From Thelonectria olida (Eukaryota > Ascomycota > Sordariomycetes > Hypocreales > Nectriaceae): DNA of 64,000 bases. The stretch spans positions 3,472,001 to 3,536,000 of the forward strand of contig JAGPYM010000001.1 in NCBI GenBank assembly GCA_020736575.1, given 5' to 3'. Numbering within the stretch: the first letter of the stretch is position 1; each line of letters opens with the position of its first letter. The position numbers were made by a program, and so were the translations under genes. Shown here in pieces: positions 27,863 to 41,529 of the stretch. The notes beneath the pieces were generated by a model. The model saw nothing but the letters and a program-made list of their open reading frames with translations. It had not been told where the DNA came from and ran no database searches.

Positions 27863-28100
27863 GAGTGGGATGAGAAGAGAGTTTACAATAGGCATTGTGC
27901 AGAGTCGAGACTTAGAAGTTGAGTGTGCGAGAGACCAAGAAGAAGAGCCTCGGACCAGTTGATACGGTAGGGAAACCATATATGCCAACTTGATGTCATA
28001 CCAATGCTCTCTCTCCCCTCTATTGTCTGAAGCAAAAAGGCAGATTATCGTGAACAAGAAGACCACGAGGACACTCATTGAGCGGGCTGCAAAAAGCAAT
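27863..28100. other. short intergenic region
   Basis: The spacer between the pseudogene and the tRNA gene. A run of five A on the plus strand (28091-28095) is the Pol III terminator of the minus-strand tRNA gene. Confidence 0.5.
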
Positions 28101-28181
28101 GCGTGATCTGGGAATCGAACCCAGGGCTCCCCGACGCTGCTCGGATGGCAACGGAGAATTTTACCACTAAACCAATCACGC
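28101..28181 (-). tRNA. tRNA-Gly (anticodon GCC) with 11-nt intron
   Basis: On the minus strand the sequence folds into a complete cloverleaf: a 7-bp acceptor stem (GCGTGAT/ATCACGC, all pairs intact), a D-arm with TAGTGGTA, an anticodon stem CTCCG/CGGGG, the loop TTGCCAT with GCC anticodon, and a T-arm CTGGG-TTCGATT-CCCAG. The A and B boxes of the internal Pol III promoter are recognisable. An 11-nt intron sits at the standard position one base 3' of the anticodon. A T5 terminator follows within ten bases. It decodes GGC/GGT glycine codons. Confidence 0.95.
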
Positions 28182-38734: not shown

Positions 38735-39063
38735 ACATCGGAGTGGTATGAAAAGTTGAGACCTCTGTGGGAGTTGATAGATTACATCACACTGTTTGAG
38801 ACGACAAGCCCCATATCAGATATTAGGTAGGTAGAGTTCAATAGCAATAAGAAAGTAGCAGAAGATTAAGGTGCCATCTCATTGGCATTCACTTACATAC
38901 TACCTCCGTAGTACACGGACGGGCACTCGGCCAACATCGGCCCCACCATGACATGACGTCTCAACTCCTAAACCCGACATCCCCCACGAGAAGATTATCA
39001 AACACACCAACATCCACCAAACAACAACAACACCACCACCGCCACCCAACCAACTCGCCCATC

Positions 39064-40116
39064 ATGCAGGGCTTCAACATGGGGCGCTACGTCCCCCCGG
39101 ACGTCGAGGGCACCACCTCCGCCAACCGCCTCCACCGCAAACACCCCCTCGGCGCCCGCGCCTCCAAGCTCGCCTCCCACGGCCAGCTCGTCGTGCGCTT
39201 CGAGCTCCCCTTCGCCGTCTGGTGCGCCTCCTGCCCGAAGCCCACCATCATCGGCCAGGGCGTCCGCTTCAACGCCCAGAAGCGCCGCGTCGGCTCCTAC
39301 TTGTCCACCCCCATCTGGGCCTTCCGCTTCCGCCACGCCGACTGCGCCGGCGACATCGAGATCCGCACCGACCCCAAGAACACGGCCTACGTCGTCGTCG
39401 AGGGTGCCACCAAGCGCGACACGGGCGAAGACATCGTCCGCGACGGCGACTCCGTCATCCTGACCGACCAGGAGCGCGACGCCCTGCGCAAGAACGCCTT
39501 TGCCAACCTGGAAAAGACGATCGCCGACCGCGAGCACCTGAAGGAGGCGACGGCGCGCATCGAAGACCTGGCCGAGGCGTCGGCGCGAGACTGGGACGAT
39601 CCTTATACGAAAAACCAAATGTTGCGGCGGACTTTCCGCGCCGAGAGGAAGAGTCGCGAGAGCGCTGCGGCGGCGACGGAGGACCTCAAGGACCGGATGA
39701 GTCTCGGCATCGACATACTGCCGGGCACCGAAGAAGACACTCGCCGCGCTGCTCTCGTTGACTTCGGCCCAGTAGCTGAGCGAGATCCGTTGTCCAAACC
39801 GCTATTCGAAAGCAGCACCAGTCGCAAAAAGCCAATGGCAAGCACTTCAAAGTCCAAAATGCTCAAGTCGGAAAAGGAGGCGGCACGGAGAAAAGAGTCC
39901 TTGGTGTTGGAGCTCGTGGGAAACACCCGAGCAGCCAAAGATCCCTTCCTCCAGGATGTTGGAACCGGAGGTGGAAATGGAGAGAGCAGGCGGCCGTCTA
40001 GGTTTCCAGATGTGAAGAGGAGGCGGATAATGCGACATGACCCGACACCATCACCAATAGCACCTGCAAAGGAAGCAAGTGGCCCAACTGGTTTGGTGAA
40101 TTATGATTCTGACTGA
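39064..40116 (+). CDS. CWC16/Saf4 (CCDC130-type) splicing factor
   Basis: The protein has 350 residues from this start. It opens with MQGFNMGRYVPPDVEG, which is the conserved start of the CCDC130/Saf4 branch of the CWC16 (Yju2) family. Then follow the basic segment NRLHRKHPLGARASKLASHG, FELPFAVWCASCPKPTIIGQ with the first Cys pair, GVRFNAQKRRVGSY, and RHADCAGDIEIRTDPKNTAY. A long helical, charged region and a disordered tail with a basic patch (VKRRRIMRHD) complete it. Family members are nuclear and join or proofread the spliceosome. The frame is open to an earlier Met at 38953, but that Met overlaps a tiny upstream frame (ATG-ACA-TGA at 38948) and would add only low-complexity Thr/Pro/His sequence, so the family start is preferred. 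Confidence 0.9.
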   Translation: MQGFNMGRYVPPDVEGTTSANRLHRKHPLGARASKLASHGQLVVRFELPFAVWCASCPKPTIIGQGVRFNAQKRRVGSYLSTPIWAFRFRHADCAGDIEIRTDPKNTAYVVVEGATKRDTGEDIVRDGDSVILTDQERDALRKNAFANLEKTIADREHLKEATARIEDLAEASARDWDDPYTKNQMLRRTFRAERKSRESAAAATEDLKDRMSLGIDILPGTEEDTRRAALVDFGPVAERDPLSKPLFESSTSRKKPMASTSKSKMLKSEKEAARRKESLVLELVGNTRAAKDPFLQDVGTGGGNGESRRPSRFPDVKRRRIMRHDPTPSPIAPAKEASGPTGLVNYDSD

Positions 40117-40521: not shown

Positions 40522-41529
40522 CTATACATCGTCCATTTGGCCCGCAGGCTCTTCGTCGTCGTCCCCAAAGCTAGCAACAGAAGAAAGGTCGTCATCATCC
40601 TCACTCTCGGCGCCCGCCTCATCTGCGGCGTCCTTATTGGCGTACTTCTGAACGTACTCTAGGCTATGTCAGCACCAGCGGCCATTCGCTCCTCATAATT
40701 TACACACCCTTGACTTTGGCGTCGTAACTCTTAGGTTCCCTTATCAACAAGGCCGCCGCTTCGCCGTTGAGTGGGTCGGTCGGGTTGGGGTATCGGAGGA
40801 GCTGTGGGAGGAACACTTCGAAGATGTTGATCATATCGAACATGGGCGACCAGGTTTGGTTAATGACGTCGAGACACACCGATCCGGACCTAGAAACGCG
40901 CCTCTCTTAGTATTTGCTGCCACACCACGACCTCTTCATGACTTACAGCTCATCGATGTTGGGGTGGAAAATGCGGTTAACGAATCCGATACTTGGAGAC
41001 TTATACGGGTATGTGTCAGGTAGCTCGACATGGACTTTCCAGATACCGCCCTCGAACGGAGCTGCCAGGCGTCAGTGGACACACGTAGTCAAAAGGAAGC
41101 TCCGCATAGTACTAACTCTCTGCCGGGCCCTTAAATCGGACGAAGAACTCTTGCCTGAAGGTAGAGGTTAAATTAGCTCGAACGGAAAGGGTCTGTGTCG
41201 GTGGCGGGGAAGCGGTACACTGTAAGTCATTAGCATGCTAACCATGGGTTTGCGTGTAGAGGAGGGTTTACTGTTGTCGTTGACTAGAGTAACCTCGTAG
41301 TCGCTCATGAGCCTGCGTTTGTTAGCATTTCGCCGGCGGGTTCGGTGCAACTGGATCGTACATCCTGTGGCATCATGTTAGCACGTCAGACCACAAGCGT
41401 TGGGACGTTGAGCCAGGGCATACTTCATGACCTAAATTAGAAAAGATTGTCAGTACACTCAGTAATAAAGCCTCTCCATGGATTGTCTCGACGTACATCA
41501 GTCTCAATCCTGCGGCGTGGGCTGCTCAT
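40522..41529 (-). CDS. UBC8: ubiquitin-conjugating enzyme E2, Ubc8/UBE2H type, with micro-exons
   Basis: Nine exons rebuild a complete 185-residue protein: 41529-41497 (33 nt), 41431-41424 (8), 41364-41362 (3), 41312-41272 (41), 41219 (1), 41154-41117 (38), 41061-40947 (115), 40889-40708 (182) and 40658-40522 (137). The sum is 558 nt, exactly 186 codons. The protein begins [20 protein letters not shown], has HPN at residues 74-76 and the catalytic Cys85 in [13 protein letters not shown], and ends in an acidic tail rich in Asp and Glu, all typical of Ubc8/UBE2H. In yeast Ubc8 acts with the GID/CTLH E3 to degrade gluconeogenic enzymes when glucose returns. Each of the eight introns is 49-181 nt or shorter with GT and AG ends; those around the micro-exons have strong GCTAAC or GCTAAT branch points. 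Without the 3-nt and 1-nt exons the family-conserved Met residues are lost and, for the 1-nt exon, the frame breaks. Confidence 0.92.
41219..41219 (-). other. single-nucleotide exon of UBC8
   Basis: On the minus strand a single T is enclosed by an acceptor (ACTTACAG, with branch GCTAAT 15 bases upstream) and a donor (GTACCG). The flanking introns are 52 nt (41271-41220) and 64 nt (41218-41155). The preceding exon ends with A and the next begins with G, so the exon supplies the middle base of ATG, the Met in NDNMQEF. Direct joining of the flanking exons would shift the frame by one. Confidence 0.8.

Follow-up and report, generated by a model that had tools for sequence, protein, structure and literature searches.

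The single UBC8 orthologue of Thelonectria olida, an E2 of the UBE2H type, appears to contain a constitutive exon of one nucleotide, a T at position 41219 of the 64,000-nt stretch of DNA that was analysed (the window), and we put the probability that this exon is real at about 95%. The genomic sequence, the logic of the reading frame, a Met in transcript-like homologues, and database entries whose flanks supply only an A on one side and only a G on the other are observed directly, and from them we infer that T. olida itself includes the T.

The UBC8 gene and its one-base exon

T. olida is placed by its taxonomy record in the Nectriaceae, Hypocreales. The gene runs from 41529 to 40522 on the minus strand of the window and comprises nine exons (Table 1) that sum to 558 nt, or 185 amino acids and a stop, which confirms the 186 codons counted in an earlier, sequence-only reading of this DNA. 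All eight introns have GT-AG ends and are 49 to 65 nt long. An assembly-wide search with UBC8 returned 16 matches, of which three fall at this locus and the other 13, located elsewhere, have identities of at most 48%, and the T. olida assembly has one UBC8 locus with a single orthologue. The gene was named from its product, which carries a UQ_con domain (PF00179; 129.9 bits against a cut-off of 27, run on the near-identical protein P0007), and from its nearest solved relatives: the structures that rank first for P0007 are 8pmq, 8pjn and 2z5d, with chains named E2-24 kDa and E2 H, which we take to be yeast Ubc8 (8pmq) and human UBE2H, respectively. The E2-24 kDa chain of 8pmq reads NDSMQEF at the Met site. 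UBC8 and UBE2H act in ubiquitin transfer together with the GID ligase, a putative role for the T. olida product, and an NCBIfam search gave no family match. The convergent neighbour of UBC8, on the plus strand at 38851-40116, encodes a Saf4/Yju2 domain (PF04502, 228.7 bits), which we take to denote a splicing-factor family; that such a gene adjoins a gene with a one-base exon is probably a coincidence. The sole tRNA found in the window, in a search run with the bacterial code, is a tRNA-Gly (gcc) at 28100-28181 on the minus strand.

Table 1. Features of the modelled UBC8 gene, in window positions
Feature	Position	Strand	Description	Basis
UBC8 exon 1	41497..41529	-	33 nt	sequence
UBC8 exon 2	41424..41431	-	8 nt, GTCATGAA	sequence; transcript-like homologues read DVMKM
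UBC8 exon 3	41362..41364	-	3 nt, GAT, the gene's second micro-exon	sequence and read-through entries
UBC8 exon 4	41272..41312	-	41 nt, phase-1 end with A	
UBC8 intron 4	41220..41271	-	52 nt, GTAAAC...TTACAG	sequence
Intron 4 branch-like GCTAAT	41229..41234	-		sequence
UBC8 exon 5	41219..41219	-	one base, T, middle of the Met29 codon	
UBC8 intron 5	41155..41218	-	64 nt, GTACCG...CTTCAG	sequence
Intron 5 branch-like GCTAAT	41172..41177	-		sequence
UBC8 exon 6	41117..41154	-	38 nt, first base is the G of the Met29 codon	
UBC8 exon 7	40947..41061	-	115 nt	sequence and assembly search
UBC8 exon 8	40708..40889	-	182 nt, includes SVCLDV	sequence and assembly search
UBC8 exon 9	40522..40658	-	137 nt, with stop	sequence and assembly search

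Exon 4 terminates ...AAC GAC AAC A at 41272 and exon 6 opens G CAA GAG at 41154, and between them the T at 41219 lies in the context ACAG-T-GTACCG, with an AG before it, a GT after it and canonical introns on both sides. Intron 4 is in phase 1 and intron 5 in phase 2, both within the codon of Met29 and one base apart, and the codon is built as A-T-G from exons 4, 5 and 6. The modelled spliced sequence over 41312-41117 with the T included contains AACGACAACATGCAAGAG, and the junction reads AACGACAACATGCAAGAGTTC with the T and AACGACAACAGCAAGAGTTC when it is skipped. The sequence-only reading had given these same exon boundaries, with flanking introns of 52 and 64 nt and GT/AG ends, and all of its coordinates hold. 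It had further placed a GCTAAT branch sequence about 15-25 bases before each acceptor, which is correct for intron 5 (18 nt after the branch A) and incorrect for intron 4, where the distance is 10 nt.

The T is needed both for the frame and for the conserved protein sequence. We enumerated one- and two-intron GT-AG paths from exon 4 to exon 6 with introns of 40-130 nt and cuts reaching at most 15 nt into exon 4 and 12 nt into exon 6. Fourteen open, in-frame solutions resulted, only one of which, the A-T-G path with introns of 52 and 64 nt, yields NDN-M-QEF, and no other canonical solution of that kind was found among these paths. Where one cut leaves just one codon, that codon is Arg (AGG) or Ser (AGT), never Met, and the intron ends are not GT-AG. 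Allowing GC donors adds other open solutions; one of them closes with S-MQEF, yet 12 foreign residues still follow its NDN. The frame also shows what each slip in splicing would cost, as skipping the T leads to a computed stop at codon 99, keeping intron 4 to one at codon 54, and keeping intron 5 to one at codon 44.

The pentamer AGTGT is common in the window (94 observed against 107 expected), and the motif by itself is therefore no evidence. To assess its placement, the 117-nt interval (52+1+64) was shuffled 20,000 times by dinucleotides with its ends kept, under criteria that were set post hoc. An AGTGT flanked by two introns of 45 nt or more appeared in a fraction of 0.0098 of the shuffles and any such AGNGT in 0.039; when these post hoc criteria also demanded a CTRAY site in each intron and a pyrimidine ahead of the inner AG, the fractions were 0.0001 and 0.0008.

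The junction in homologous proteins

Three protein searches, each represented by its top 120 out of over 5,000 hits, yielded 249 different proteins. Four were dropped before counting: P0001 and P0098, which have plant names and lack the motif, and two that have it, P0050, for which there is no contig, and P0049, whose source is mixed. This left, among the matches listed, 42 transcript-like and 203 genome-derived entries. Transcript-like entries are those from lgn, jgi and ena sources whose frames cross the intron sites unbroken; their RNA origin is our interpretation of the source tags and of how long the contigs are, with 40 of the 42 on contigs shorter than 5 kb (the exceptions being P0033, at 7,280, and P0218, at 5,261). 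The entries are clusters, related to one another, and do not stand for independent genomes. Searches for fungal DNA of the same gene returned none from a viral contig collection and only three distant prokaryotic E2-like loci from a genome contig collection, so conservation was derived from the protein entries. The three loci (L010, L011 and L012) are on contigs of a Micrarchaeota archaeon, a Planctomycetota bacterium and a Phycisphaerales bacterium and have E2-like stretches 28-36% identical to UBC8.

The predicted Met is what transcript-like homologues contain. Among the matches listed, 37 of the 42 read D[NS]M[QS]EF, and P0223 starts at MQEF. The remaining four have no in-frame reading of the site: P0214 and P0218 stop short of it, and P0135 opens with residues that match intron 5 of a related genome entry and continues without introns 6 to 8. 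The fourth, P0150, seems from back-translation to carry the expected bases of the T junction in another frame, which a shifted intron 6 donor then restores. This supports the sequence-only reading, in which the T yields A-T-G and NDN-M-QEF, the sole canonical solution found with the conserved Met. The closest of the listed transcript-like homologues, the Ilyonectria-like P0007, differs from our model at one of 173 residues and is identical to the genome-derived Ilyonectria destructans entry P0009 at 156 of 156 residues after the site. P0007 reads MKM-LMSD and NDN-M-QEF, whereas P0009 lacks the exon 3 Met and has 17 foreign residues at the site of the one-base exon. The frame of P0007 starts at Met13, and if intron 1 is kept the window has an in-frame TAG, at the end of that intron, one codon upstream; the P0007 contig may thus retain intron 1.

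The genome-derived entries tell the same story through their errors. Among the matches listed, the NDN-M-[Q/S]EF motif is missing in 190 of 203 and intact in 13 by a strict pattern (17 by a looser one that counts four NDN-S-MQEF entries). In the first 139 genome-derived entries of the listed matches, indels affect 3/132 at residues 1-10, 95/133 at 11-16, 25/137 at 17-26 and 106/139 at 27-32, followed, each out of 139, by 12 at 33-39, 15 at 40-43, none at 44-77, 3 at 78-82, none at 83-138 and 6 at 139-143. The corresponding counts in 31 of the listed transcript-like proteins are 0/28 at both 1-10 and 11-16, 1/31 at each of 27-32, 33-39 and 40-43, 2/31 at 78-82 and 0/31 in the other bins. Many database entries thus probably misrepresent this highly conserved protein, mostly by inserts or losses at the two micro-exons, and one-base exons elsewhere may be overlooked in the same way.

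What the faulty models keep at their edges indicates the phases of the junction. Among the 190, all 135 entries that keep NDN follow it with a residue codable by ANN, which means that exon 4 contributes only an A. On the other side, the residue before [QS]EF[YF]V is codable by NNG in 132 of the 133 faulty entries that keep it, against a background of 0.73 in inserts (p ~3e-17 on the assumption, not valid for related genomes, that entries are independent), so that exon 6 contributes only a G. The middle T must then come from between the two. Neither flank is kept in 8 of the 190.

A set of twenty entries, drawn from the matches listed, points to the next splice site. These entries read NDN-M on into the expected intron 5. 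A TNN codon could encode the next residue in 19 of 20 (background 0.32), and the second residue is codable by GNN in 17 of 20 (0.23) and is Val in 12 of 20 (0.03). The respective p values of 5e-9, 7e-9 and 7e-14 treat entries from related genomes as independent, which they are not. Back-translated, the read-through entries would mostly spell T-GTNNG(T), with a 5' splice site right after the T. P0163, P0226 and P0227 apparently keep the whole of intron 5, at 51, 57 and 63 nt by count. P0163 and P0249 fail the GNN test, and P0059 (Mollisiaceae), which reads M-H-P, fits neither TNN nor GNN; it would call for a GC donor or a different structure.

The 3-nt exon 3 lies between introns of 59 and 49 nt. 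Among the matches listed, 44 of the 203 genome-derived entries skip it in frame (VMKLMSD), a form found in none of the 42 transcript-like homologues, and 20 genome-derived entries read past VMKM into Tyr or Cys, as an exon GAT followed by GT would give. A 21st match to this last pattern, P0201, is not a read-through.

The UBC8 protein deposited for T. olida, P0019, matches our model from QEF to the end and is most likely wrong at the site of the one-base exon. Exons 2, 3 and 5 are missing from it, and portions of introns 1 and 5 have been translated into it, with a 13-residue stretch that is translated intron 1 and an insert, TNLTSTFR, that is the translated end of the window's intron 5. If P0019 were right, a single 95-nt intron would lead from exon 4 to an acceptor, TTCGAG, within intron 5, with TNLTSTFR in place of Met, and this join is indeed among the 14 in-frame solutions. 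However, it would put the branch-like site of intron 5 into an exon, and its residues are absent from all 38 transcript-like homologues that read the site (the 37 with D[NS]M[QS]EF and the one starting at MQEF). The entry's loss of exons 2 and 3 also speaks against it, and related genome entries have many different inserts at the same place, the mark of a gene-finder workaround. We therefore consider the 95-nt intron very improbable.

A genomic sequencing error is another conceivable source of the pattern, since one lost base could give a single ordinary intron the appearance of being out of phase, one base would mend the frame, and one assembly was read. However, the 190 of 203 genome-derived entries without the motif show the same A-only and G-only phases wherever their flanks are kept, so a shared error is not credible, and we give this explanation almost no weight. 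Arg, encoded by AGG, could also replace the Met if one non-canonical intron were removed to give NDN-R-QEF. That join is in frame, and four of the 190 faulty entries are deposited with plain Arg for Met and nothing inserted (P0061, P0099 and P0194 as NDNRQEF, P0213 as NDNRSEF), where the Arg may be real or a forced join. Such an intron would need the ends AG..TC, GT..CA or TA..AG, and Arg is absent from all 38 transcript-like homologues in which the site is read, making such an intron exceedingly unlikely. Lastly, a stwintron, in which one intron is nested in a splice site of another so that no sequence remains between the two, has a negligible chance of accounting for the site, for although stwintrons occur in Pezizomycotina they leave no base behind, and nested GT-AG excision here gives nine distinct open in-frame products, none with NDN-M-QEF.

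A proposed order of splicing

Fungal introns are short, and this is read as a sign that they are recognised across the intron (PMC6616335). Introns 4 and 5 would each be recognised as an intron by its own ends and branch site, and the length of the exon between them would then be irrelevant to recognition. In CAG-T-GTACCG the 3' splice site of intron 4 overlaps the 5' splice site of intron 5, and the two are unlikely to be occupied both at once, which would make crowding, and not recognition, the problem. Because of this overlap, the introns would leave one after the other, and removal of either would leave a complete splice site for the other. Were intron 4 to leave first, the donor of intron 5 would change from AGT-GTACCG to CAT-GTACCG; were intron 5 to leave first, the acceptor of intron 4 would become ACAG-TGCAAG.

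We favor a sequence of events in which intron 4 would be removed first, as it is transcribed first and the joining would give intron 5 a slightly better donor context. On a crude donor scale, a noisy weight matrix with flat weights built from 36 unique introns (a rule-based finder gave these and 69 clusters in 264 kb), the score of the intron 5 donor goes from 2.57 to 3.63 upon removal of intron 4, a small gain for so noisy a scale. This donor, GTACCG, has no G at +5 and moves from the 8th percentile of the noisy 36-intron set in the pre-mRNA to the 39th after intron 4 is removed, and the intron 4 donor is at the 3rd percentile of the same set. Both donors are weak, and beyond that point the crude weights are untrustworthy. 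The transcript-like P0135, in which intron 5 is kept and later introns are gone, fits a slow removal of intron 5 and is no proof of the order.

Age of the exon and comparison with known one-base exons

The read-through entries that fit the T junction include Fusarium, Beauveria, Cordyceps, Thyridium, Alternaria, Plenodomus, Aureobasidium, Diplodia, Botryosphaeria, Coniosporium, Paecilomyces and Lasallia. By class assignments that come from six names looked up, with Coniosporium placed via another species of the genus, the entries cover Sordariomycetes, Dothideomycetes, Eurotiomycetes and Lecanoromycetes, the last two through one entry each of the 20 (P0244 and the GNN-failing P0249, respectively). 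Back-translation of these faulty protein models suggests that the one-base exon is present in the DNA of relatives, and the exon is probably old, being common at least to Sordariomycetes and Dothideomycetes. The 13 intact genome-derived entries may reflect loss of the intron pair in some lineages or models that were correctly made. The sequence-only reading had proposed a check of whether the pair is conserved in other sordariomycetes; apparently it is, as seen indirectly through back-translated protein entries, and the conservation would reach beyond that class. It is conceivable, though in our judgment doubtful, that the exon predates the split of the leotiomyceta classes and has since been kept as an obligate two-step site because it is useful, with the E2 level set by splicing of the pair. 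If so, the early stops at codons 99, 54 and 44 that follow each slip are what would allow the cell to set that level.

The sequence-only reading named the one-base exon of Arabidopsis APC11 as a precedent, which is in print (PMC4674806), and knew of no established fungal example, a statement that does not stand, since such exons have been described in CYP621A of Fusarium (PMC12940212) and in snoRNA host genes of Candida (PMC5033589). Among the open-licence PMC papers listed in searches for one-base exons and micro-exons, titles and abstract openings name no such exon in UBC8, and those listed for introns and exons of UBC8 in fungi are by the same measure not relevant. Two other papers came up as possible earlier cases and were set aside, PMC5306281 because the wording was unrelated and PMC8208691 because the passage seen held only a citation.

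Several systems resemble the UBC8 pair in part. The stwintrons of Pezizomycotina (PMC6616335, PMC5639578) also involve two short introns that are removed consecutively, yet they leave no exon base, unlike UBC8. At ratchet points (PMC8605326) an acceptor and a donor lie side by side and the first joining presents a 5' splice site, as would happen in UBC8; there, however, the AG is directly joined to the GT, whereas UBC8 has one coding base between them that would be kept in the mRNA. One base also separates introns in placozoan cox1 (PMC5436844) and in a fungal rnl (PMC12308204), but these genes are organellar and the rnl pair consists of group II introns.

The one-base exons of plants are comparable as well. 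Consecutive removal under intron definition was proposed for APC11 (PMC4674806), and VPS55 has a further one-nucleotide exon (PMC8831610); like that of UBC8, these are one-base coding exons missed by annotation, with wide conservation among land plants. They differ in that they are plant genes, that the APC11 interval is 422 nt, and that they were proven by reporter constructs, while the UBC8 case comes from sequence (PMC4674806, PMC8831610). The snoRNA host clusters of Candida, for which a 2016 paper gives alternative removal orders inferred from RNA-seq and a first step that would regenerate splice sites, are, like UBC8, fungal, nuclear and spliceosomal, with one base between introns; those hosts, however, are non-coding, with G as the base and no frame at stake, whereas UBC8 is coding and has a T (PMC5033589).

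There is also a likeness to CYP621A of Fusarium, for which Nelson and Syed (February 2026, PMC12940212) report a one-nucleotide exon in 20 orthologues with RNA reads from two species. It too is a fungal nuclear coding gene in which one base, placed between AG and GT in the middle of a conserved codon, is essential for the frame, and nearly all of its deposited transcripts are wrong according to the authors (PMC12940212). The base in CYP621A is a G (AGGGT), which the authors consider favoured on both sides, whereas that of UBC8 is a T, and CYP621A is a P450 of one genus, whereas UBC8 is a conserved E2 with signs of the exon in several classes (PMC12940212). The one-base exon as a kind is thus already known, and what appears to be new is the gene, the spread over classes that the protein entries suggest, the adjoining 3-nt exon and how large a share of the entries is faulty. 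The short list of nuclear genes with one-base exons would gain an E2 gene that is widely conserved, and its case suggests that such an exon can persist across fungal classes. The UBC8 pair would also be a natural and widely available substrate for the study of how the spliceosome handles introns that share one base.
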